64,000 nucleotides of DNA from Bacteroidota bacterium (GTDB lineage: Bacteria; Bacteroidota; Bacteroidia; Chitinophagales; Saprospiraceae), in contig CAUJEY010000132.1 in NCBI GenBank assembly GCA_963169325.1, positions 1 to 64,000 on the forward strand, written 5' to 3'. A program made the position numbers and the translations under genes. A model generated the notes under the pieces. It made no database searches, had not been told where the DNA came from, and worked only from the letters and a program-made list of their open reading frames with translations. Below, piece by piece: positions 20,289 to 63,996 of this stretch. How positions within the stretch are numbered: position 1 is the stretch's first letter; every line of letters starts with the position of its first letter.

Positions 20289-20960
20289 TCACCGGCTGCT
20301 ATTTTCGCTCTTTGTTTCATCTCTATATTCCTTTATCTGACTCAACAACTCCATTGATGTTATGACCGGGTTCCATTCTTTCCCGTTAAATATAAGACGG
20401 AACCATTTTTTATCCTTATTCTCATACCGGATATTAAAAAAGAGCCAGATGGCAAGATAAGTAAATGATCCTGTTATGATGATTTGAAGTGCATATAACC
20501 AGGCGTTTCCATTTTCCAACATACTTTCATTCCAGTAAAAGGTGGTCCAGACCGGGAGTTGAAGAAAAAGCAGCCGTGTAACCCAAATCGTTGACGATTT
20601 TAAACGCGCTATCTTTTCCTGTACCGCTACTATCGGCGCACTGATATCTACCTGGTGGATAAGAATCATCTGATACAAATATATACCAATGGCCAGTTTG
20701 GTCAATAGCACCTGAATGCCTGCCGAAATCAGAAAAAACGGACTGGCGATGCTAAACAGGTTGATGATTAAGGTATCGACAAAAACAACCCATAGAAGGC
20801 CAATCACAATAGTGAATATCTTAATCGGCTTCATGGAAGATATAAATGACTGAACCTTGATCCGGGTAATATCCTCCGTATTTTTCCGGTTCAGTACCAG
20901 GTTTTCTTCCAGTTTTTTGTCGTAAGATTTCCAGATTTCTATCATTTCTAATTCTTTCAT
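20289..20960 (-). CDS. Hypothetical membrane protein encoded next to an ECF sigma factor
   Basis: Several TM segments; 6-nt gap to the sigma factor ORF. Confidence 0.7.
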   Translation of the reverse strand: MKELEMIEIWKSYDKKLEENLVLNRKNTEDITRIKVQSFISSMKPIKIFTIVIGLLWVVFVDTLIINLFSIASPFFLISAGIQVLLTKLAIGIYLYQMILIHQVDISAPIVAVQEKIARLKSSTIWVTRLLFLQLPVWTTFYWNESMLENGNAWLYALQIIITGSFTYLAIWLFFNIRYENKDKKWFRLIFNGKEWNPVITSMELLSQIKEYRDETKSENSSR

Positions 20961-20965
20961 CTTGA

Positions 20966-21475
20966 TTAGGTTTTTACGTTCGAAAATTTTTGTTTTAACT
21001 GAAGTTTTATTCTTGAAATTTTGGTAGCGATATTCGTCACGGTCAACCCAAGTATTTCTGCTATCTCCTGTTGACTGTTCTCTTCCAAATAAAGCAGCAT
21101 AATAGCCCGGTCCATTTCCTTCAGTTCCTTTATGAACCGGTGTAGCCGATCCACCTCAGCGTCTAACTCGCCCGTGTTTTCTGCCTCATACAGGTGAAGA
21201 ATTCCATCGGATAAGGGTTGGCTGATTTGATCTCTGCTATTTTCTTTTCTGTAAAAGGAAATGGAAACGTTCAACGCAATTCTGTACATCCAGGTGGTCA
21301 GCTTAAATTTTTCATCATAATGATGGAAGGAAAGCCATAACTGAAGGATGATCTCCTGAATCAGGTCCTTTCGATGTTCCGAATTTTTGCAATAGGAGTT
21401 GGCTATTTTGTAAATAATACCCTTGTTTGCTTCTATTACGGTCAGAAAAGTTTGCGCATCTCTTTTTAAAGACAT
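20966..21475 (-). CDS. ECF-type RNA polymerase sigma factor
   Basis: Region 2 KDLIQEIILQLWLSFHHYDEKFKLTTWMYRIALN and region 4 helix-turn-helix. Confidence 0.9.
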   Translation of the reverse strand: MSLKRDAQTFLTVIEANKGIIYKIANSYCKNSEHRKDLIQEIILQLWLSFHHYDEKFKLTTWMYRIALNVSISFYRKENSRDQISQPLSDGILHLYEAENTGELDAEVDRLHRFIKELKEMDRAIMLLYLEENSQQEIAEILGLTVTNIATKISRIKLQLKQKFSNVKT

Positions 21476-21595
21476 CGTTTTTAAAATTGACGTTTTGTAA
21501 CCCACGCCCTGAATTGGATATTGTGGTTTTCCTGATTATTCGCAAGAGGTCTGGAAATATCACACTTAAAGAAGAATTTTTATTCACCTTTTCGA

Positions 21596-21633
21596 TGTCC
21601 GCCTACGCACACCCGCCTGTCCGAAAACGAACA
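21596..21633 (+). promoter_or_regulatory. Two tandem dyads TGTNCG-N4-CGNACA, candidate enhancer-binding-protein sites
   Basis: TGTCCGCCTACGCACA (21596) and TGTCCGAAAACGAACA (21618), 22 bp apart. Confidence 0.65.
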
Positions 21634-21685
21634 TCCCCACACGATACACTATCTCAAAAATTTGATTATCAGCAACATACATCAC

Positions 21686-21700
21686 TGGCATGGCAATTGC
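21686..21700 (+). promoter_or_regulatory. Sigma-54-like -24/-12 promoter
   Basis: TGGCATGGCAATTGC matches TGGCAYG-N4-TTGC; 46 nt before ATG. Confidence 0.65.
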
Positions 21701-21745: not shown

Positions 21746-24217
21746 ATGTTACAAAATTATCTGAAAATCGCCCTGCGCAACCTCTGGCGCAACAAATCTC
21801 AATCCGCCATCCTTATCGGCGGTCTGGCAGCGGGCATGGGCGCTTGTATGCTATTGTTGCAATACGTCAGTTTCGAGTTGAGTTTCGATGATTTCCACGC
21901 GAAAAAAGATCGCATCTACCGGGTGGTCAACGAACGTATACAGGACGGCAAAACCATCCAAAAGGGCACCATTACCTACCCAACGATCGGAGCGGCGATG
22001 GCGAAAGATTTTCCGGAGGTAGCCAATCATACCCGGATCATGCAAGGCGGTGAAGTATTCGTCCGGCACGAGGATAAACTGGCGTTGCAGGAAGGTTTTC
22101 TCTGGGTGGATGAGCATTTTTACGAGATTTTCGATTTTCCGATGCTCGCCAAATCAGACGACGGTTTTTTGGCGGAACCAAATCAGGTGGTGCTCACCCG
22201 CAGCGTCGCCGATTTTTATTTCCCTGGCGCAAAAGGAGACTACCAAACGGCAATTGGCAAGATTGTGTTCCTGGAAACGGACAATAACCCGTACAAAATC
22301 GCCGGGGTCTGCGAAGACGTACCGGCCAATTCGTTGTTGCAATTCAAGGCCCTGGGCTCCTATGCCTCCGTTATCCGGCGCGCGGGCAAAGAGGCTGACG
22401 AAAGTTGGACCTGGTCGGATTTCTGGCATTATATCGAACTGAAACCCGGCGTCGATGCCGCCGCGCTCGAAGCCAAATTCCCCGCCTTCAGCAACCGCTA
22501 CTTTCGGGGCACGGAAGTGTCGGGAAGTCAGGAAGTATTTACCCTGCAACCCCTGAAAAAAGCGCACTTGTACTCTGCCGGACTAGAATACGAGATCGGC
22601 GAAACGGCCAATGGCAGGGCGGTGTGGTCGCTGCTTATCCTCGCATTTTTTATTCTCGTCATTGCCTGGATCAACTACGTCAACCTCTCTTCCATACGGG
22701 CGATAGAACGGGCCAAGGAAGTAGGGGTGCGAAAAGTGGTTGGCGCCAAACGGAGTATGCTCATGGGTCAGTTTCTGACGGAAGCACTGCTGGTGAATAT
22801 GCTGGCGTTGTTGTTCGCATGGTGGGGCGCGGCAATGCTCAAACCCTGGTTTGCCGCCAACTTCGGGCTGGACGCTTCAGCCTTGCAATTTGCCACGGCA
22901 AACAACTGGTTCATCCCGGTCTCCATGCTGGGACTGGTACTGGCCGGCGTGCTGGTATCCGGCTTTTACCCGGCCTGGTTGTTGTCGGCGCCGCATGTTG
23001 CCAACGTGCTGAAAGGTAATTTCCGCTCCTCCTTTACGGGCGCGGCGGGCGGTGGCGGGCAGTTGCGCCAAGGTTTGGTTGTGTTCCAGTTCACCGCTTC
23101 CATCGCTCTGATCACAGCCACCTGGCTGGTCTCCAGGCAAATCGATTTTATGAACAAACAGGACCTGGGCATCAATATCGACCAGGTCGTGACGATAGAC
23201 GGGCCGAGACTGACCGGCTGGGACAGTACTTTCATCACGAAAATGAATGCTTATAAAGCAAAACTGCTCACCAATCCGCATGTTAAAAGCGGCGCCACCT
23301 CCAACCACACCATAACCGACGACCAGCAGGGCCGGATTTTTCAAATTGAAAAAAAGAGCGACAACCCTTCTAAAGAGCAATACACCAGCAGCTTCATGAT
23401 GACGGATTTCGGCTATGCCGAAACGTATGGCATCAAGCCGCTCGCAGGCAGGTTTTTTTATGAAACCGATCATAACCCCGACTTCGATAAACTCGACAAA
23501 ATCGTGGTGACGGAGACAACGGTAAAAATGTTCGGTTATGCCTCCCACGAAGCCGCCATCGGTCAAACCATCAGGTACTGGGACCGGAACTGGACCATTA
23601 TAGGCGTGCTGCCCGATTACCACACGAAGTCGTTGCACCATGCAATCGAGCCCCTGATTTTTATGCCGGCTTATTCCTCGGGCAACAAACTGTCGCTACT
23701 GCTGGACGGCAATGACATGGACGCGACCATCGGTTTCATTCAGGCCACTTTTCAGGAATTTTTTCCCGGCAATGCGTTTAGTTATGAATTCCTGAACGAG
23801 GCTTATAGCAAACTCTATGAAGCCGATGCCCGCTTCGGGAGAATTCTCGGCTTTTTCACCTTGCTTACGATCCTGATTGCCTGCCTCGGCTTATTCGGGC
23901 TGGCTTCGTACACGACGTTTTTAAGAAAAAAAGAGATCGGTGTGCGTAAAGTACTGGGCGCCTCCACGGCTGGCATCGTTGCGCTGCTGTCGAAGGATTT
24001 TTTGAAATTAGTCCTTTTGTCATTGGTCATTGCGTCGCCGGTGGCCTGGTATTTTATGCACCATTGGTTGCAGGAGTTTCCATACCGGATCAACATCGAA
24101 TGGTGGGTATTTGCCCTGGCGGGTGTTTCGGCCCTGGCCGTGGCGTTTCTGACGGTGGGCGCACAGAGTATGAAGGCGGCGTTGGAGAATCCCGTGAAGG
24201 CGTTGCGGAGCGAGTGA
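21746..24217 (+). CDS. ABC transporter permease, MacB/FtsX type
   Basis: LKIALRNLWRNKSQSAILIGGLA, two FtsX domains (AKEVGVRKVVGA; KKEIGVRKVLGAS), C-terminal NPVKALRSE. Confidence 0.93.
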   Translation: MLQNYLKIALRNLWRNKSQSAILIGGLAAGMGACMLLLQYVSFELSFDDFHAKKDRIYRVVNERIQDGKTIQKGTITYPTIGAAMAKDFPEVANHTRIMQGGEVFVRHEDKLALQEGFLWVDEHFYEIFDFPMLAKSDDGFLAEPNQVVLTRSVADFYFPGAKGDYQTAIGKIVFLETDNNPYKIAGVCEDVPANSLLQFKALGSYASVIRRAGKEADESWTWSDFWHYIELKPGVDAAALEAKFPAFSNRYFRGTEVSGSQEVFTLQPLKKAHLYSAGLEYEIGETANGRAVWSLLILAFFILVIAWINYVNLSSIRAIERAKEVGVRKVVGAKRSMLMGQFLTEALLVNMLALLFAWWGAAMLKPWFAANFGLDASALQFATANNWFIPVSMLGLVLAGVLVSGFYPAWLLSAPHVANVLKGNFRSSFTGAAGGGGQLRQGLVVFQFTASIALITATWLVSRQIDFMNKQDLGINIDQVVTIDGPRLTGWDSTFITKMNAYKAKLLTNPHVKSGATSNHTITDDQQGRIFQIEKKSDNPSKEQYTSSFMMTDFGYAETYGIKPLAGRFFYETDHNPDFDKLDKIVVTETTVKMFGYASHEAAIGQTIRYWDRNWTIIGVLPDYHTKSLHHAIEPLIFMPAYSSGNKLSLLLDGNDMDATIGFIQATFQEFFPGNAFSYEFLNEAYSKLYEADARFGRILGFFTLLTILIACLGLFGLASYTTFLRKKEIGVRKVLGASTAGIVALLSKDFLKLVLLSLVIASPVAWYFMHHWLQEFPYRINIEWWVFALAGVSALAVAFLTVGAQSMKAALENPVKALRSE

Positions 24218-26004: not shown

Positions 26005-29000
26005 CTACCGAACCAACGTAACATCCCCTTTGACCAGCATCCGCTGCCCGTTCGTCAGTTCAAATTCCGCATACCAGGTAAATACCCCGGGCATCATATC
26101 GCGTTGGTCGAAACGGCCATCCCACCCCAGTGTTTCCTGGTTTGGGGCAAAATCCCGGCCTTCGAACACCAGCTCGCCCCAGCGGCTGTACACCCGGAAC
26201 ACACGCACCACACGCACACAGGAGGCTGTCTCCGGATAAAACCAATCATTCCGGCCATCATCGTCCGGTTGAAATGCATTGGCCATATACACATCGCAAA
26301 CCGGATCCACGCGCAGCCAGATCGAATCGGTAGCCATACAACCCCGGCTGTCCGTCACTTTCAGGGCGTACCAGGTGTTCTCTTCCGGATTCGCAAACGG
26401 CTCGGCACAGGTATTACAACTGAGCTGGTCCGGCGGCGTCCAGGCGAATTGCAGCGGCGGTTCGCCAAAAACCACCGGCGTTAACTGAATGGATTGGCCC
26501 AGTCCAACCTGGGCCGTCGAGGGTAAATCTATCGTTACGTCCGGCAGTGCTGCTACCGTCACCAGCACCGTAGAATCGCAGCCATTGGCCGCCAAAAAGG
26601 CAAACGGATACGGCCCACCGGGCGTTAAATTCTGGCCGTTATAAACCGCCGGCTCGCCGGGGCAAGTCACCAATTGTACCTGACTCAATACCGAATCAAT
26701 TTCCAAAACCGTCACCAATACCGTGGAATCGCAGCCATTGGCAGCCATAAAGGCAAACGGATACGGCCCGCCGGGCGATAAATTTTGACCGTTATAAACC
26801 GCCGGCTCCCCGGAACAGGTCACCAATTGCACCTGACTCAACACTGAATCAACTTCCAAAACCGTCACCAGCACTGTAGAGTCGCAGCCGTTAGTCGCCA
26901 AAAAAGCAAACAGATACGGCCCACCGGGCAGTAAATTTTGACCGTTATAAACCGTCGGCTCGCCGGAGCAGGTCACCAATTGCACCTGACTCAATACTGA
27001 ATCAATTTCCAAAACTGTCACCAGTACTGTGGAATCGCAGCCATTCGCAGCCAAAAAGGCAAATGGATACGGCCCACCGGGCAGTAAATTTTGACCGTTA
27101 TAAACCGCCGGCTCGCCGGGACAGGTCACCAATTGCACCTGACTCAGCACCGTATCAATTTCCAACACTGTCACCAGCACCGTGGAATCGCAGCCGTTGG
27201 CCGCCAGGTAGGCAAAAGGGTACGCGCCGGGCAGTAAATTTTGGCCGTTATAAACCGCTGGTTCGCCGGGACAGGTCACTAATTGCACCTGACTCAACAC
27301 CGAATCAATTTCTAAAACCGTCACCAGCACCGTAGAATCGCAGCCATTGGCAGCCATGTAGGCAAAAGGATACGCGCCGGGCGTTAAATTTTGGCCGTTA
27401 TAAACCGCCGGCTCGCCGGGACATGTCACTAATTGCACCTGACTCAGCACCGAATCAATTTCCAAAACCGTCACCAGCACCGTGGAATCGCAGCCGTTGG
27501 CTGCCATGTAGGCAAAAGGGTACGCGCCGGGCGTTAAATTTTGGCCGTTATAAACCGCAGGCTCGTCGGGGCAGGTCACTAGTTGCACCTGACTCAGCAC
27601 CGAATCAATTTCCAAAACAGTCACCAGCACCGTGGAATCGCAGCCACTGGCAGCCATGTAGGCAAAAGGGTACGCGCCGGGCGTTAAATTTTGGCCGTTA
27701 TAAACCGCCGGTTCGCCGGGACAAGTAACGAGTTGCACCTGACTCAACACCGAATCAATTTCCAAAACCGTCACCAGTACCGTAGAATCGCAGCCATTAG
27801 CCGCCATATAGGCAAAAGGGTACGCGCCGGGCGTTAAATTCTGGCCGTTATAAACCGCAGGCTCGCCGGGACAAGTAACGAGTTGCACCTGGCTCAACAC
27901 CGAATCAATTTCCAAAACCGTGACCAACACTGTGGAATCGCAGCCATTGGCCGCCAAGTAGGCAAAAGGGTACGCGCCGGGCGTCAAACTTTGACCGTTA
28001 TAAACCACCGGTTCGCCGGGACATGTCACGAGTTGCACCTGACTTAACACCGAATCGCCCAAAATTTGAATTGTCAGGGTATCTGCCGACAGACACCCTC
28101 CCATTTCCCCAACAATGATGTAGGTGATATTTGCCGGTGCCGTAGTCACCACGGTCGGGCAATCGGCGCAGGACAAATGATCATCCGGGTACCAATGCCA
28201 GGCAGTAAAGGGCGCGGGCAGTTGATACGTAAACGCCGCACCGGCACAAGCCGAGCGATCCGGGCCAAGGTCGAGTACCGTGGTCGGAATCAAGGTGATT
28301 TCCAGTGTATCGCTTTGTTTATTTCCGCAACCATCCCAAACATCCACCCAGTACTTTCCGGGCACGGTGGTGGTCGTATTTGTTTGTTCGGTAGTACCGT
28401 CGTACCAGCGGTATTTCGGAAAACCAGGGCCGGCATCAAGCACTGTCACTCCTTTATCACAAACGGCGCGGTCCGGCCCCAGGTCGAGCACAGCGGTGGA
28501 TGGTTCCAGTACGGTGATATACAGCGTATCGGCGGCTTCACCACATAACGACACGGCACGGGCAATGATTTCCGTCTGGCCCGCCTCATCGAACAGGATG
28601 GTGACACTTTCCTTCGTCTGATTGGCAATTACCCCTACTCCATTGACTATGAAATCGACCGATTGAACGCCGCAGGGCAATTTTTTTAGCATATAGGTTT
28701 GTTCCTGTGGAAATTGACACAAGGTGTCCACCAGGTTTTTTTCGTCAAAATAAACGGCGGGCTTCCAAAAATAACTCACCAAAAAATTCGGCAAACTCAG
28801 GTTGGTCCCCGGCGTACCGGCCAGGGTTTGCCCGCCTTCCTGATACAGGCAACCGGCCCCGGCTTCATCCGGTTTGTGAATAATCCCCAGCTGTGTGGTA
28901 AACACCCCGGGGCCGCTGTTGGTGGTGTATATTTTGCCGTTTTTAGCCAACTGAAGTTGCCCATAATGGTAAATACCCGGGAAAGAAGCCAGCAGTACCG

Positions 29001-32000
29001 CCGAGGCAGCAATTGCCGATGCGTCGCCGGCCAGCAGATCGAACTGAAAAAGGCTGGACGTATTACCCAAACCGGTCGCATACAGGTACCGCCCGGTGGG
29101 GGAAAATTCCACTCCATAAGGATTGATCAACCCCGGCGCCTTCAACAACACCGGATTGCTCACCGTACCCGTCGCCGCGTCGAAATCAAAAATTTCCACG
29201 GCATTCGTATGGTGCAGGGCGCGCGCCAGATGCAGGCCGTCAGGCGCTATTTTCATTTGCCCGATGACATCGTAGTTTCCGTTCGGCGCCGGCCCGCCGG
29301 TTCCGGCATTGCTGACTACCGGCGTGGTATTCAGGCCGTTTTGGTCTATCCGGTAAGCCAGAAAGGCATTGGTAGTTTTGCGGTGGTTGAGCACCCAATA
29401 ATCCGTGCCGTTGCAATGGCGCGCGGCGCTCATTTGTTCCACCAGTTCGCCGGCGGGTGTCAACGGGAGATTTTTTTTGCCGGCAGGCACATCACCGAAA
29501 CCGCTATTGAGCGTCATATCCACTTCCGAATACGAGAGTCCGCGCAGGGGGCCGTTGTCGTAACTGTCGGGTGTGAACACATAAAACCGGGCCGGGTTGC
29601 CGGGGTGCGGCACGATGAGCGTTTGGCTGGACGAGCCGTGTCCGAACAACCCGCTTCCGTTGGGCATGGCCAGGTGGTTGCGCTGAAAAATGGTTTTGGC
29701 ATCGGTATAAAAAATCAGGCGCCCGAGCGGGTCACTCGCCACAGCCGAGGCTTCGTTGGTGGTGGTCTTACCGTCGGTCAGCACTTGGGGCGGGTCATTG
29801 GTAAAATTCAAACCGGCCTGCCGGCCAAAATACCAGATGTTGGTTTCCGAGCCGTCGCAGGTATGGCAGTCGCAATCGGGGTCGAGGCAGTCGAACAGGT
29901 TGTCGCCGTCGTCGTCGAGGCCGTTGTTGCAAATTTCGGGCGTGCAGATTTCGATACAAACATCAGTCGTCGTGAGGTTCTGCGCACGGGGAACAGCGTT
30001 GCGCGGCGCCAGCGTTACCGGGCTGGGATATCGAAGCAGATTGACCGCCACGGAGATCGTGGGCAAATCCGTGGCAGAAACAATCATATCGAGCGGCTCC
30101 GGACAATCGCCCCCTACCCGGCCGTCGTCGATGCGGATTTTGGCTACCGCCAAATCGCCGGCGCCCAGGTGCTGCGCCGCGAAGTACAGGTAGTTTCCGA
30201 CGCCGACGAGCAGGTTTTCCCCCCGCAAAATGCGGTAATTACGGAATTCGCGGGCCCACACCGGATTGCCGTTTTTATCGATGTGGAGCAGGCCAACACT
30301 GGGCGGCTGACCGGCAACCAGATTGGTCACCAGTACGATATAGCCGTTTGGCACCGAGATAATACCTCTGGTGGTCGCCTGGGCCAGGGGCAACGTGTAC
30401 CGTTTGGCCCAGAGGATACTGCCGGCGAGGTCCGTTTTACAAACGGCAATGCTATTGGTCAGGCCGGCGTCGCTGTCAAAGTCGCCATACACCGTGGTCA
30501 CCATACTTGCCCCGTCGAAAATGAAATCCGAGGCATAGTTGCGGGCCGTGGCGCCCGGGCCGAAAAACAGCATACGGCTCCATACCGGATTGCCCGTTGG
30601 GTCGAAACAACTCAGGCCCGCGCGCATGCCGCCAAACGCGGCGCCGTAGGTGTACCGGCCGGCCGTGTACCAAAAACCGGCCCGTTGTTTAATATCTAAA
30701 AATGACTCCGAACTACCATAGGTGTACGCATAAGGCGTACCCGTGATGGCTCCGGTATTCCGGTTGATCTCAACGAGATTGGCATCGTCGAAACTGCCGG
30801 GCGCCGGTGAGTTGTGGTACGACCAGGTGGCCAGAAAGTTTCCACCCGCTGCTTTTTCCTGAATGTTATAACAAAAGGATTGTGGGTTTACGGGATTTTC
30901 GCGCACCCAGTCGACCTGGTCCGTCGCAGGGTTGTAGCGAAAAACAAAGCCCGTCAGCGAACCCAAACCGAACAAGCCGCAACCCGCAATATGGCCTTCG
31001 CTGTCTTCGATAATCTGGCTGATCTGTTCGCCGGCGCCGCTGGCAAATTTGAAAATGCGCACCCATAAGGGCGAGCCGCCGGGCGCCATTTTCATCAGCA
31101 GCGAACTGTCGTTCCGGAATCCGCTGACGTAAAAATTGCCGTCGGAAGCCTGGATGATATTGGTGCCGCCTTGTTGTACGCCAGGTGTGCTGAAGGTTTT
31201 GATCCAGGTGTTTTCGCAGGGTGGGTCTTCCGGGCAGTCGGGCGCGCAAATTTCGGTTTTAGCCACCGTGACGGGTTGTGCGGTCAGGGTCACGTTTTGC
31301 AACACCGGGGGCGTGATCTCCTGCAGGGAGCCGTTGGTTTGGGTGATTTGCAGGGGGATGACGGCCGTGGTATGCGGGGTTTCGGGGCAAAGCCCGGCGT
31401 GGCCGTCGGCGTCCGTTTTGAGCACATAAAAATCATCGCCGCCGCTGCCTGCGCTGGTGGTTCTGCCGGTCCAGAGCAAGCCGCCGGAGGTCAGGGCGCG
31501 CACATCGAATAGGCTTTCCAGCCCGCCGCCGCCGTATTGCCTGCTCCAGAGGATCTGCCCGGCGTCGTCTATTTTCAGCAAATACGCTTTGGTATCGCCG
31601 GTGTTCGGCCGGTTTCGGCCGGCGAGAACGAAATTGCCGTCGGCGGTATTCACTAAGCCCGTCGTTTCCCAATCGAGGTTATTGGACGGCCGGTACAGCC
31701 TGGTCCAAAGCATGTTGCCGTCGGCGTCGGTGCGCACGATACCGCCTTCGGGGTAATTCCCCGCGCTGAAATTCCACAAGCCGGCGGCAAACAAAAATCC
31801 GCCGTCGGCGGCGATGGACACATCGCTGAACCCGCCGTCGGTGGGGGTGCCGTAGGCCTTGGTCCAAAGCAGGTTGCCCGCAGCGTCGATGCGATACGCC
31901 ACGCCGTCGTGGGGACCGCCGAGGCCGTACGAATTGCCGTAGCCCGAAGCGATGTATCCGCCGCCGGGCAGTTCGCGCACGCCGGTGACAAAATCAGTCC

Positions 32001-35000
32001 GGTTATTGTTCCAGCCGCGGTACCATTGGGTGGCGCCGGTAGCATCCATTTTCAGGAAAAAAGACGACCAGTTCGTATTGTCGTTTGGTGAAAAGGAACC
32101 GGCAATGAGGTAGCCGCCGTCCGAAGTGGAAATGATGTCGGAAAAGGAATCGGTCTGACTACCGGTATTCGTGACGACGCGCCGGGCAAATTGTACGTTT
32201 CCATTGGCATCACATACGGCGAAGCCCGCATCAGTGGGCGTTCCGAGGGCGAAAGACATAAAAAAACTGCCGTCGGGTTTGGTTTGCAGGTCAGACAAGG
32301 CATCGAAAAGCCCCGGTGCGCCGTATTGTTTACTCCACAGGATTTCACCGCTGGCGTCGGTGCGGGTGATCAGGATATCCTGGTTGCCGTTTTGAATAAT
32401 ATTTCCGCCCAGGAGGTAGCCGCCACCGGGCATTTCAATACCGATGATGCCACGTTCGTCGGCCGGGGTGCCATAGGTATTTTGAAAAGATTTGCAGGGC
32501 GGGGGTGGCGGATCGTCGCAGGCTTTCGGGCAGGGTTCATCCGACAAAAGCGCAAAATTTTGAACTGGCAGGTTGATGGATATAGGTGTCGGAGTTTGTA
32601 ATACACTAAAAGCGCCAGTGGTTTCAGAAGGCGTGGCGTTCAGCACTTCCGTCTGGTGCGGGATTTCCGCGCAAAGACCTGCAAATCCGTTTTCATCCGT
32701 TTTTAGCAGAAAAACATCCTGCGCGCCGGCACCGATCCCGGTTGTGTAGCCAGTGAACGCATAGCCGCCGCCCGGCAGGACAGCCACTTCGCCCAGACGC
32801 TGCGCGCCGACGCCCCCGAACTGTCGCGACCAAATCAAGTTGCCGTCCTTGTCCACGCGCATCAGTGCGGCATTTTCTGTACCCATGGCGCCTCCGTCAT
32901 TGGCAGACACGACATAATCGGTTCCCAATGCCTCCACGATACCGCGAAATCGCGTGTCGACCAAATTGGAGGGCCGGTAAGTTTTCGACCATAAGATATT
33001 GCCATTCGGCGTCACTTTGAGCAGCCAGCCGTCGTCAACTACGGCGCCGTTAAACGAGGAGGTATTGCCGGAAATCAGGAAATTGCCATCCGGCATGGGG
33101 GTGATGGTATTGAACACTTCATTGGCCTGGTCCCCAATGGCTTTATTCCAAAGCATGTTGCCGTTGGCATCCAGGCGAAAAAGCAGCCCGTCGTGAATAC
33201 CAAAACCTAAGGAGGTTTCATGTACCGCTCCGACCACTATTAGCCCGCCATCAGGCAGCAGTGCGGCGTCGTAGGCCACATCGGTTCCGGACCGGTCGTA
33301 ACACCTTGCCCACAGTTGGTTGCCGTTGGCATCTAACCGGGCCACATAGGCTGCCCAGCCGCTGCCAACCCCGGCGATACCGCCTAAAACGACAAAACCG
33401 CCACCCGGTAAAGGGCGGATATGTACCAGGTAATCCGTCGTACCCGACGAAGGCGCCCGGTATTGCCATTGTACATTTCCATCCGCGTCGAATTTTGCCC
33501 ACCCGAAGTCATTGGTAGGCCCTGAATCAGTGTTTAGTCCAACAATTATTCCGCCATCGGCAGTGCGTTGTGCCGTGACTGCCGATTCGTTCGTGTTGGC
33601 CTGTCCGAATTGTTTCGACCACACCACTTCACCGGCGCCCGTTGTTTTTAGCAATAAAATATCTGTTTTGCCATTCGGCTGGGTAATGTTGCCGGTCACC
33701 AGCAAATGGCCGTCGGCAAGTGCAATGGTCGCAACACCCGATTCATTCTGCGCGGTACCGTACGCTTTTTGAAAGGTGAAATTTGTACAAGAGTCCCCTA
33801 CTGCAATGTACACGAATTTTGTTTTTTTACAAAGCCCATTACCCGCCTCCAGCCGCACGATATACACCCCGGTTTGGTTGAAAGTATAATTGTTTAGTGT
33901 AGTTCCCTGTGAAACACCGTCGATAAACCACTCAAACTGTGTGGCATTCTGGCTGGTATTCGTAAAGGTCACTACTTCGCCGGCAGGCGGATTGGTTGTG
34001 CCGGCCTGAAAATCGGCCACCACCGGGCAAACGACCTGAATGATCGCCGTGGCCGTATCGGCGCTGCACAAATCGGGCAAAGCGCTGTTGGCCTGCAACA
34101 TAACCACAAAGACGCCTTCTGCGGGAAAAGTATAACCGGCATTGGTTGTATTGGCAAACGGCACGCCATCCACCGACCAGGTATAGGACACGGCGTTTTG
34201 GCTGGTGTTGGTAAACGTCAGGTTTTGGCCGATCGGAATCGTGGCGCTGGCAGGTGTAAAAGCCGCGACCACCGGCGCTACCGGACAAGGATCGTTGCAG
34301 CCCTTCGACGCCAGGAGGCTTGCCCGCGTGGTGGTGATAGCGGCGTTCATGCGAACCGATTGCCCGGGTGTAAAATCATGGAAACATTTGAAGTCGGTGT
34401 AATCCATAAAATTGAGAATCAGGTCGTTCTGATCCGTGACAAAACCCGATTGTGTATCGGTTGTGCAGGTATTGACCTGGGCGTTGCAGGGCACCCACTG
34501 GGTACTGTTGTCGGGCGGGGTATCGCACACACGGTCGCCGTCGAGCAGGCAGTCGTTGTTGGTGCAGCCGCCCTGAAAGGTGTGGTACAGGCCGAGGTAG
34601 TGGCCCATTTCGTGCGCCAGTACGCCCGTATTGCCGGGGGAAGAGCCCAGCCAGTTGGCCTCCATCACAATGCCGTCGATATTGCTGCCATGCGCCGAGG
34701 GGAAGTACGCATAACCGGCTACCCCGCAACCGGAACTGGCGGAACAAATTTCGCGCACCAGCCAGATATTGACATACCGGGTCGGGTCCCAACGGTTGAG
34801 GTTTTTGAGGGCCAGGTCTTCGGATTCCAGGGTCATGTCCGTCAGGTTATTCACATCCCGGGTAATGCCGTTGGTGACTAAGTTATCGGGAGAGCGTTTG
34901 GCCAGACAAAACTGGATCATCGTATTGACGCCGCTGCCCTGATCGTAGTAGGCCGTATTGGCAAACGCGTCGTTGAGTTGTTGGATACCTTGCAGCACCT

Positions 35001-35280
35001 GCGCATCGGAGATATTTTCCGGTCCGTTTTGATGCACGATGTGTACGACCACCGGCAGCGTGACAACCGCGCCGTCGGGTTGGGCCGATTTTATCTGTTG
35101 AAAAATGCCTTGTTCGAAGGCTTCGTGCTTTTTTTGGAACGCCGGGTCGTGCAACGCTTTCCGGTGGAGAATATCCGATCCGCAGGGTTCGGAGATCGTT
35201 TGGGCCGGCAAGCGGGTAAGAAAAGCCGGAGAAAGGAGCAACAGCCAGGCTGCTGCGGCGGGTAGGTTAAAAGATGTCAT
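26005..35280 (-). CDS. Giant (3091 aa) secreted M43-like metalloprotease/adhesin with PKD-like domains, three propeller-like modules, ten tandem repeats and T9SS type B/CHU_C-like C-terminus
   Basis: HEMGHYLGLYH zinc site (34582-34614) and NFMDYT Met-turn; C-terminal ANAFQPDDDGRNDWFYP...VFRVYSRWGELVFEG...GWDGRF. Confidence 0.92.
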   Translation of the reverse strand: MTSFNLPAAAAWLLLLSPAFLTRLPAQTISEPCGSDILHRKALHDPAFQKKHEAFEQGIFQQIKSAQPDGAVVTLPVVVHIVHQNGPENISDAQVLQGIQQLNDAFANTAYYDQGSGVNTMIQFCLAKRSPDNLVTNGITRDVNNLTDMTLESEDLALKNLNRWDPTRYVNIWLVREICSASSGCGVAGYAYFPSAHGSNIDGIVMEANWLGSSPGNTGVLAHEMGHYLGLYHTFQGGCTNNDCLLDGDRVCDTPPDNSTQWVPCNAQVNTCTTDTQSGFVTDQNDLILNFMDYTDFKCFHDFTPGQSVRMNAAITTTRASLLASKGCNDPCPVAPVVAAFTPASATIPIGQNLTFTNTSQNAVSYTWSVDGVPFANTTNAGYTFPAEGVFVVMLQANSALPDLCSADTATAIIQVVCPVVADFQAGTTNPPAGEVVTFTNTSQNATQFEWFIDGVSQGTTLNNYTFNQTGVYIVRLEAGNGLCKKTKFVYIAVGDSCTNFTFQKAYGTAQNESGVATIALADGHLLVTGNITQPNGKTDILLLKTTGAGEVVWSKQFGQANTNESAVTAQRTADGGIIVGLNTDSGPTNDFGWAKFDADGNVQWQYRAPSSGTTDYLVHIRPLPGGGFVVLGGIAGVGSGWAAYVARLDANGNQLWARCYDRSGTDVAYDAALLPDGGLIVVGAVHETSLGFGIHDGLLFRLDANGNMLWNKAIGDQANEVFNTITPMPDGNFLISGNTSSFNGAVVDDGWLLKVTPNGNILWSKTYRPSNLVDTRFRGIVEALGTDYVVSANDGGAMGTENAALMRVDKDGNLIWSRQFGGVGAQRLGEVAVLPGGGYAFTGYTTGIGAGAQDVFLLKTDENGFAGLCAEIPHQTEVLNATPSETTGAFSVLQTPTPISINLPVQNFALLSDEPCPKACDDPPPPPCKSFQNTYGTPADERGIIGIEMPGGGYLLGGNIIQNGNQDILITRTDASGEILWSKQYGAPGLFDALSDLQTKPDGSFFMSFALGTPTDAGFAVCDANGNVQFARRVVTNTGSQTDSFSDIISTSDGGYLIAGSFSPNDNTNWSSFFLKMDATGATQWYRGWNNNRTDFVTGVRELPGGGYIASGYGNSYGLGGPHDGVAYRIDAAGNLLWTKAYGTPTDGGFSDVSIAADGGFLFAAGLWNFSAGNYPEGGIVRTDADGNMLWTRLYRPSNNLDWETTGLVNTADGNFVLAGRNRPNTGDTKAYLLKIDDAGQILWSRQYGGGGLESLFDVRALTSGGLLWTGRTTSAGSGGDDFYVLKTDADGHAGLCPETPHTTAVIPLQITQTNGSLQEITPPVLQNVTLTAQPVTVAKTEICAPDCPEDPPCENTWIKTFSTPGVQQGGTNIIQASDGNFYVSGFRNDSSLLMKMAPGGSPLWVRIFKFASGAGEQISQIIEDSEGHIAGCGLFGLGSLTGFVFRYNPATDQVDWVRENPVNPQSFCYNIQEKAAGGNFLATWSYHNSPAPGSFDDANLVEINRNTGAITGTPYAYTYGSSESFLDIKQRAGFWYTAGRYTYGAAFGGMRAGLSCFDPTGNPVWSRMLFFGPGATARNYASDFIFDGASMVTTVYGDFDSDAGLTNSIAVCKTDLAGSILWAKRYTLPLAQATTRGIISVPNGYIVLVTNLVAGQPPSVGLLHIDKNGNPVWAREFRNYRILRGENLLVGVGNYLYFAAQHLGAGDLAVAKIRIDDGRVGGDCPEPLDMIVSATDLPTISVAVNLLRYPSPVTLAPRNAVPRAQNLTTTDVCIEICTPEICNNGLDDDGDNLFDCLDPDCDCHTCDGSETNIWYFGRQAGLNFTNDPPQVLTDGKTTTNEASAVASDPLGRLIFYTDAKTIFQRNHLAMPNGSGLFGHGSSSQTLIVPHPGNPARFYVFTPDSYDNGPLRGLSYSEVDMTLNSGFGDVPAGKKNLPLTPAGELVEQMSAARHCNGTDYWVLNHRKTTNAFLAYRIDQNGLNTTPVVSNAGTGGPAPNGNYDVIGQMKIAPDGLHLARALHHTNAVEIFDFDAATGTVSNPVLLKAPGLINPYGVEFSPTGRYLYATGLGNTSSLFQFDLLAGDASAIAASAVLLASFPGIYHYGQLQLAKNGKIYTTNSGPGVFTTQLGIIHKPDEAGAGCLYQEGGQTLAGTPGTNLSLPNFLVSYFWKPAVYFDEKNLVDTLCQFPQEQTYMLKKLPCGVQSVDFIVNGVGVIANQTKESVTILFDEAGQTEIIARAVSLCGEAADTLYITVLEPSTAVLDLGPDRAVCDKGVTVLDAGPGFPKYRWYDGTTEQTNTTTTVPGKYWVDVWDGCGNKQSDTLEITLIPTTVLDLGPDRSACAGAAFTYQLPAPFTAWHWYPDDHLSCADCPTVVTTAPANITYIIVGEMGGCLSADTLTIQILGDSVLSQVQLVTCPGEPVVYNGQSLTPGAYPFAYLAANGCDSTVLVTVLEIDSVLSQVQLVTCPGEPAVYNGQNLTPGAYPFAYMAANGCDSTVLVTVLEIDSVLSQVQLVTCPGEPAVYNGQNLTPGAYPFAYMAASGCDSTVLVTVLEIDSVLSQVQLVTCPDEPAVYNGQNLTPGAYPFAYMAANGCDSTVLVTVLEIDSVLSQVQLVTCPGEPAVYNGQNLTPGAYPFAYMAANGCDSTVLVTVLEIDSVLSQVQLVTCPGEPAVYNGQNLLPGAYPFAYLAANGCDSTVLVTVLEIDTVLSQVQLVTCPGEPAVYNGQNLLPGGPYPFAFLAANGCDSTVLVTVLEIDSVLSQVQLVTCSGEPTVYNGQNLLPGGPYLFAFLATNGCDSTVLVTVLEVDSVLSQVQLVTCSGEPAVYNGQNLSPGGPYPFAFMAANGCDSTVLVTVLEIDSVLSQVQLVTCPGEPAVYNGQNLTPGGPYPFAFLAANGCDSTVLVTVAALPDVTIDLPSTAQVGLGQSIQLTPVVFGEPPLQFAWTPPDQLSCNTCAEPFANPEENTWYALKVTDSRGCMATDSIWLRVDPVCDVYMANAFQPDDDGRNDWFYPETASCVRVVRVFRVYSRWGELVFEGRDFAPNQETLGWDGRFDQRDMMPGVFTWYAEFELTNGQRMLVKGDVTLVR
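26554..28056 (-). repeat. Ten in-frame 150/153-bp tandem repeats
   Basis: DSVLSQVQLVTCPGEPAVYNGQNLTPGAYPFAYMAANGCDSTVLVTVLEI x10; six 50-aa and four 51-aa units. Confidence 0.97.
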
Positions 35281-62501: not shown

Positions 62502-63056
62502 ATGGAATTACAACTGATCCGTCAAAAAATATATGAGGTTCGGGGCCAGAAGGTGATGCTCGATTTTGATTTGGCAGCACTTTATGAAGTGGAAACCCGC
62601 GCGCTAAAACAGGCGGTGCGGCGGAATCTAGAGCGATTTCCTGAAGATTTTATGTTTGAATTGGATGAAACCGAAGTGCACAAGCTGGTATCACAAATTG
62701 TGATACCATCGAAAAGCTACTTTGGAGGAGCCTTACCTTTTGCTTTCACAGAACAGGGTGTGGCAATGCTTTCCGGTATTTTAAAAAGCAGGAAGGCCAT
62801 TCAGGTCAACATAGCCATCATGCGCGCTTTTGTCGAGTTTCGCCGATACGCCCTCACCTACACCGAACTGGCACAAAAAATAACCGAACTGGAAACAAAA
62901 TTCGAGCACGAATTCGCCGATGTGCATGAAGTACTCCGGTGGCTGGGCGAAGAAAATCAGGCCAGGGCTGATGATATAACTGCGCTGCAAACGGAAAACC
63001 CGCGGGTTGATGCGTGGGAAAATCGCCCGCGCATCGGGTTTAAAAAAGAACCGTAA
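62502..63056 (+). CDS. ORF6N-domain protein
   Basis: IRQKIYEVRGQKVMLDFDLAALYEVETRALKQAVRRNLERFPEDFMFEL. Confidence 0.88.
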   Translation: MELQLIRQKIYEVRGQKVMLDFDLAALYEVETRALKQAVRRNLERFPEDFMFELDETEVHKLVSQIVIPSKSYFGGALPFAFTEQGVAMLSGILKSRKAIQVNIAIMRAFVEFRRYALTYTELAQKITELETKFEHEFADVHEVLRWLGEENQARADDITALQTENPRVDAWENRPRIGFKKEP

Positions 63057-63238: not shown

Positions 63239-63276
63239 TGTCCATCTCCGCACGCCCGCGTGTACGAAAACGAACA
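63239..63276 (+). promoter_or_regulatory. Tandem dyads upstream of second FtsX-like permease
   Basis: TGTCCATCTCCGCACG (63239, degenerate) and TGTACGAAAACGAACA (63261), 22 bp apart. Confidence 0.6.
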
Positions 63277-63329
63277 TGCGGGCCTCGCAAACCAATTCCA
63301 AATATTTGATTTTCAGCGCCATATCCGGA

Positions 63330-63344
63330 TGGCATGGCAATTGG
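63330..63344 (+). promoter_or_regulatory. Sigma-54-like promoter
   Basis: TGGCATGGCAATTGG; 38 nt before ATG 63382. Confidence 0.55.
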
Positions 63345-63381: not shown

Positions 63382-63996
63382 ATGCTGAAAAACTTCTTCA
63401 CCCTCAGTTTCCGACGGCTCTGGAAAATGCGCAGCTATTCGATCATCAACATCGGCAGAATGGCCGTAGCCATCGCCGGCGGACTGCTGCTTTTTAGCCA
63501 TATTCAGCACGAACGAAGTTTCGATACTTGGCATACCAATGCCGGTCGTATCTACCGGCTGAACATCGGAAGTTTTGACAACGATGCCCGCAGCGCCGTG
63601 TCGTCGGGTGCAATGGCCCCGGCTTTTGCGGGCGATTTTCCAGAAATTGAACATTTTACGCGCTTCCGGCAATTTCCTTCGCTCGTGAAAAGCGGCGGTA
63701 CCCGGTTCTATGAAGACGGTTTTTATTACACCGATTCCACCGTTTTCGACGTATTTGATTTTAGATTGAAAGAAGGCAATCCGGCTTTGGCGCTGGCACA
63801 GCCCTTCAGCATTGTGCTGACCGAAGCAGCCGCCAAAAAATACTTCGGCGACCAACCGGCCATCGGGAAACAGTTGGAAATCGACAACCGGTTTTCGTTT
63901 CAGGTCACGGGTGTTTTAGCGCCCGTCCCCGAGAATTCTCATTTCAAATTTGATTTTTTAGCCTCCGTTTCTTCGCTGCGCCAGCACCCCGACTAG
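63382..63996 (+). CDS. ABC transporter permease, MacB/FtsX type (N-terminal part, cut at or near the window edge)
   Basis: MLKNFFTLSFRRLWKMRSYSIINIGRMAVAIAGGLLLF...RSFDTWHTNAGRIYRL; start trimmed from 63334. Confidence 0.82.
   Translation: MLKNFFTLSFRRLWKMRSYSIINIGRMAVAIAGGLLLFSHIQHERSFDTWHTNAGRIYRLNIGSFDNDARSAVSSGAMAPAFAGDFPEIEHFTRFRQFPSLVKSGGTRFYEDGFYYTDSTVFDVFDFRLKEGNPALALAQPFSIVLTEAAAKKYFGDQPAIGKQLEIDNRFSFQVTGVLAPVPENSHFKFDFLASVSSLRQHPD

Follow-up and report, generated by a model that had tools for sequence, protein, structure and literature searches.

Sigma-54-type control regions with putative twin activator dyads precede duplicated export permeases in a Bacteroidota genome

Sigma-54/NtrC-type enhancer-dependent promoters, such as nifH and glnHp2, are built from a UAS pair, an IHF site and a -24/-12 promoter element. 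The control region analyzed here resembles these textbook promoters in its paired upstream dyads, its IHF-type spacer site, its -24/-12 element and its candidate activator, a response-regulator AAA+ protein with a Fis-type HTH, and differs from them in its targets, which are orphan duplicated export permeases in Bacteroidota. A computational study from 2025 (PMC12316311) found sigma-54 promoters enriched before COG0577 FtsX-like permeases in Bacteroidia, which it termed first evidence; promoter type, permease family and class are all the same as in our case. That study is limited to the enrichment, and a search of its text turned up neither upstream activating sites nor palindromes nor IHF, and we saw no activator assigned in it, while the binding sites, the activator clades and the regulon come from the present analysis. 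For Flavobacterium psychrophilum, PMC9723704 describes a sigma-54 regulon with -24/-12 promoters, one of them confirmed by mutagenesis, in which bEBPs are present and left unassigned to promoters. This regulon shares with ours the Bacteroidota -24/-12 promoters and envelope-related targets, but as targets it names chaperones, proteases, gliding and surface genes, with no twin-dyad permease regulon described in the sections consulted. Systems of this kind are well known; the dyad consensus TGTYCR-N4-YGRACA, the activator clades and the permease regulon, for which our searches of open-access papers gave no earlier description, seem to be new on that basis. Searches aimed at an activator or UAS of these permeases led only to PMC12316311 and, at the level of the phylum, to PMC9723704.

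The window, i.e., the whole stretch of DNA that we analyzed, is 64,000 nucleotides long and contains two copies of the control region. A first, sequence-only reading had described, at 63239-63344, twin dyads with a spacing of 22 bp, then an AT block and a promoter element, with the promoter element 69 nt after the start of the second dyad (68 at the other locus), and had proposed that this region is the reuse of one located 42 kb away. All of these elements were found again at the same places, both distances held upon re-measurement, and the separation of the loci came to about 41.6 kb. The layout of 63239-63344 repeats that of 21596-21700, and the observation of a repeated layout is thus confirmed. 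The features are as follows.

21596..21611, + strand: distal activator dyad, first copy, TGTCCGCCTACGCACA
21618..21633, + strand: proximal activator dyad, first copy, TGTCCGAAAACGAACA
21655..21667, + strand: IHF-type consensus match, first copy, CAAAAATTTGATT, 0 mismatches
21686..21700, + strand: putative sigma-54 promoter, first copy, TGGCATGGCAATTGC, 68 nt past the start of the proximal dyad
21746..24217, + strand: duplicated permease, 823 aa, intact, with two MacB_PCD and two FtsX stretches
63239..63254, + strand: distal activator dyad, second copy, TGTCCATCTCCGCACG, 9/10 consensus positions of TGTNCR-N4-YGNACA
63261..63276, + strand: proximal activator dyad, second copy, TGTACGAAAACGAACA, 10/10 consensus positions of TGTNCR-N4-YGNACA, 22 bp from the distal dyad
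63299..63311, + strand: IHF-type consensus match, second copy, CAAATATTTGATT = YAANNNNTTGATW, 0 mismatches, 31 nt before TGG; the AT block AAATATTTGATTTTCAG lies at about 63301-63317
63330..63344, + strand: putative sigma-54 promoter, second copy, TGGCATGGCAATTGG, with -24 TGGCAT, a 5-bp spacer and -12 TTGG, 69 nt past the start of the proximal dyad
63382..63996, + strand: pseudogene of an FtsX/MacB-type permease, 204 codons long up to a TAG at 63994

The window also carries an ECF sigma factor gene with a 223-aa partner (20289-21505, - strand), which is divergent from the first copy at a distance of 90 bp, a single ORF of 3091 codons (26005-35280, - strand) and, directly upstream of the second copy, a phage-type gene with an ORF6N domain (62502-63056, + strand).

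Across the 8.07-Mb assembly, the dyad pattern TGTNCGNNNNCGNACA (TGTNCG-N4-CGNACA) occurs 26 times, compared with 3 occurrences of the reversed control. We then used a sequence-only model of the control region, profile R1, whose training set combined 11 sites from this genome with 10 from others. R1 gives exactly 11 matches in this genome at E <= 4e-10, and the next one stands at 2e-3, more than six orders of magnitude away; as all 11 matches are R1 training sites, the weight of this result rests on completeness and on the gap, not on rediscovery. Together, the dyad counts and the R1 gap rule out a chance origin of the layout. The weaker R1 matches (E > 1e-3) were set aside: in part they overlap true sites in antisense orientation, and none of the others is close to a MacB_PCD gene. 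Export genes are found downstream of all 11 sites. Nine sites directly precede duplicated MacB_PCD/FtsX-type permeases, one of which is cut by a contig end and one of which is the pseudogene of the window; another, on contig C145, precedes HlyD-ABC genes that are followed by at least nine duplicated permeases in a row; and the last, on contig C124, precedes the genes HlyD-TolC-ABC-permease-permease-bEBP-kinase, the bEBP being the protein P0001 discussed below. On C145 (L055/L056), the site, HlyD, one ABC ATPase and the permeases, arranged head to tail, extend over about 12.3-36.8 kb, apparently as one very long operon. The genome has one match to PF00309 (rpoN), at C153:6205 (E=5.6e-13).

Judged by its motifs, the control region is of the sigma-54 type, with twin activator sites TGTYCR-N4-YGRACA, an IHF-consensus site and a canonical -24/-12 promoter. 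The -24 TGGCA and the -12 TTG are invariant at 11/11 sites with a 5-bp spacer, in agreement with TGGCAT-N5-TTGC, the canonical sigma-54 -24/-12 form. The dyads are 21-22 bp apart, which corresponds to two helical turns, a spacing found in 26/28 cases. To assess the spacer, we counted matches to the IHF consensus WATCAANNNNTTR against dinucleotide shuffles: perfect matches are present in 6/11 spacers (shuffle mean 0.13) and matches with at most one mismatch in 11/11 (shuffle mean 1.8, max 6), and they sit at two fixed positions. The AT block AATATTTGATTTTCAG of the sequence-only reading corresponds to this IHF-type match, which may instead be the site of another bending protein. Between copies, identity reaches 77% in the motif columns, 47% in the IHF zone and 32% in the spacer and leader. 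Measured in other genomes, promoters lie about 60, 69 or 80 from the proximal dyad and about 91 and 101 from the distal one. These distances fit a period of 10.8 bp best, and 0 of 1000 random sets showed a periodicity as strong, as would be expected of upstream activating sequences. Such helical phasing of dyads and promoter is predicted by activation through looping.

The permease behind the first copy is intact and has no ATPase gene beside it. Its nearest subfamily is ADOP (TIGR03434, NCBIfam), with which it aligns along its whole length at 277.4 bits for a cut-off of 622.3. With respect to the DarBCD system of darobactin export, the C145 adaptor is nearest to DarC and the C145 ATPase to DarD, and the DarBCD scores are 78, 207 and 284 bits for cut-offs of 700, 450 and 375. 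Given that all scores stay below the curated cut-offs, we did not file the permease as ADOP or DarB, and we regard these systems as relatives to which our genes do not belong. This kinship suggests that the substrates could be peptides or other envelope-active compounds. The second copy had been thought to precede another FtsX-type permease; the family was correct, but the gene is not a working one. Past the TAG at 63994, about 30 codons continue in the same reading and are followed by the last 72 residues of a permease, with about 500 codons missing, and the remnant reaches approximately C132:64310 (L062), beyond the end of the window. Unless the assembly is wrong at this point, the gene is a remnant, 33% identical to the other permease of the window over the part that is left. 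The control region before it is intact, and given that the permease is dead, this copy may now have no function.

We searched other genomes with the twin-dyad pattern alone, i.e., with a query containing neither promoter nor gene, and found it in 19/395 Bacteroidota genomes, compared with 1 for the control. Most of these matches are followed by sigma-54 elements, at 58, 66-69 or 79-80 nt, and by genes for permeases or for HlyD/TolC. R1 sites are present in 37/119 genomes of the class and in 15/24 genomes of the same genus, with a maximum of 16 per genome. Among 40 sites outside R1 training, 26 precede HlyD, TolC, ABC or permease genes and 14 do not precede transport genes; in five of these 14, the next gene encodes a member of a single family of small secreted proteins, and in two a DUF3836-like protein. 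The members of the former family (L151, L157, L160, L174 and L182; genomes G429 and G492), about 109 aa long, have no Pfam match above the cut-off, and it is possible that they are cargo or envelope-stress proteins of the regulon. In the other two cases (L162 in G238 and L177 in G347), the encoded proteins are likewise small and secreted; the protein of L162 is a DUF3836 protein (E=4e-25), which that of L177 resembles by eye. In genome G099 (L166), the site precedes an ECF sigma gene.

The sequence-only reading had taken the dyads for bEBP sites, an assignment now supported by gene neighborhood and co-occurrence. P0001 contains a REC domain (PF00072), a sigma-54 AAA+ domain (PF00158) and a Fis HTH (PF02954), the combination of an NtrC-type activator, and the adjacent gene encodes a HATPase_c protein, a histidine kinase. 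The export operon in which it sits carries its own copy of the switch, with one clear dyad whose half-site is slightly different (GGGCA). In 15 genomes, a site is present within 8 kb for 20/32 of the bEBPs that are related to P0001, compared with 1/57 of the other bEBPs. Across 40 relatives, sites and a bEBP of this type are both present in 16 genomes and both missing in 21, with three discordant genomes (16/1/2/21; p=4e-8, a value that overstates independence because the genomes are related). Such linkage and co-occurrence would be expected of a cognate activator. The site-associated bEBPs form two sister clades, A and B, apart from the genome's other two bEBPs; clade A members are encoded in a HlyD-TolC operon, clade B members divergently from a HlyD-ABC-permease core locus, and the recognition-helix stretch LGLTR-x-ALYRR is common to both with small variations. 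The twin dyads of Flavobacterium-like genomes have a HlyD operon on one side and a divergent NtrC-type gene on the other, and the activator encoded by the latter is 39% identical to P0001. Two further bEBPs of our genome were rejected as activators, both being outside the site-associated clades: that of C240 is without a Fis HTH and that of C288 without a receiver domain.

The only activator of the site-associated clades found in this genome is P0001, of clade A. No clade B bEBP gene or fragment was found in this 96.7%-complete assembly, so that the clade B gene would be either absent here or unassembled, even though 11 sites are kept, and the assignment of P0001 to the sites of the window is correspondingly uncertain. 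On balance, we lean towards P0001 itself acting at these sites. The strongest competing explanation, which we regard as a serious but not the favored one, is a sigma-54 regulon whose activator in this genome is a clade B bEBP missing from the assembly, with P0001 controlling its own operon only. In its favor, clade-B-only genomes of the genus mostly keep 6-16 sites, clade B adjoins the twin-dyad core locus, and P0001-type operons carry a single clear dyad; against it speak the failure to find any clade B sequence in a nearly complete assembly and the near identity of the recognition helices of the two clades.

Either activator would be compatible with a sigma-54/bEBP regulon, a reading that we consider highly likely. 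By comparison, it is very improbable that the dyads serve as operators for some other protein, such as a repressor or a component of the ECF sigma system encoded divergently from the first copy, next to a sigma-54-like element present by coincidence. Such a reading could draw on the position of that ECF gene, 90 bp away, and on the ECF gene behind one site in another genome, but the -24/-12 element shows no variation among the 11 sites and keeps helically phased distances from the dyads, and ECF genes are no general neighbor of the sites, whereas bEBP genes are. There remained the choice, left by the sequence-only reading, between a regulon and duplicated cassettes; a regulon under constraint is favored by the 11 export-gene sites, by the excess of motif over spacer and leader identity (77% vs 32%) and by the phylum-wide layout. 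A recent duplication of whole promoter-permease cassettes, with the resemblance as functionless leftover sequence, is what the sequence-only reading had named as its own refutation. In its favor, the copies at 21.7 kb, at 63.3 kb and on contig C68 belong to a more closely related promoter subtype, their control regions being 70-77% identical. Such a duplication is nevertheless extremely unlikely because the permeases behind the sites are only 30-44% identical, the 110 bp upstream of the dyads are no more alike than shuffled sequence (identity 0.41 vs 0.40), similarity between promoter spacers does not rise with permease identity (Spearman -0.16), and the motifs persist across orders of the phylum.

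We thus consider it very likely that the control block is sigma-54-dependent, enhancer-driven and part of a dispersed regulon. The motifs, their spacing and phasing, the targets and the association with an activator are established from the sequences, and from these we infer a model. The partner histidine kinase would phosphorylate the two-component NtrC-type bEBP, which would then bind both TGTYCR-N4-YGRACA dyads on the same face of the helix. An IHF-like protein would bend the spacer, allowing the AAA+ domain of the bEBP to reach RNA polymerase-sigma54 at -24/-12 and to open the promoter. The predicted targets are the orphan duplicated FtsX/MacB-type permeases together with the HlyD-adaptor/ABC-ATPase operons, which could supply them with adaptor and ATPase, such that one envelope signal would switch on a set of export systems jointly. 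Given at least 11 copies in this genome and the recurrence of the switch with its likely activator gene across Bacteroidota, one signal probably induces the whole set of export permeases.

A more tentative extension, which we think rather doubtful as a whole, is that Bacteroidota possess a dedicated sigma-54 regulon of ancient origin, with a single kinase-activator pair governing both a dispersed library of orphan duplicated permeases and a single adaptor-ATPase operon, the ATPase being shared in trans, as an interchangeable export system against envelope-active compounds. With the present analysis, a large and poorly understood permease family gains a DNA motif, a promoter and candidate activators, and a published statistical enrichment becomes a testable regulon. 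Since the orphan permeases appear to be co-regulated with an adaptor/ATPase operon, the model predicts which ATPase and adaptor they use, and, if it is confirmed in a cultured relative, the inducing signal could be read with one reporter.
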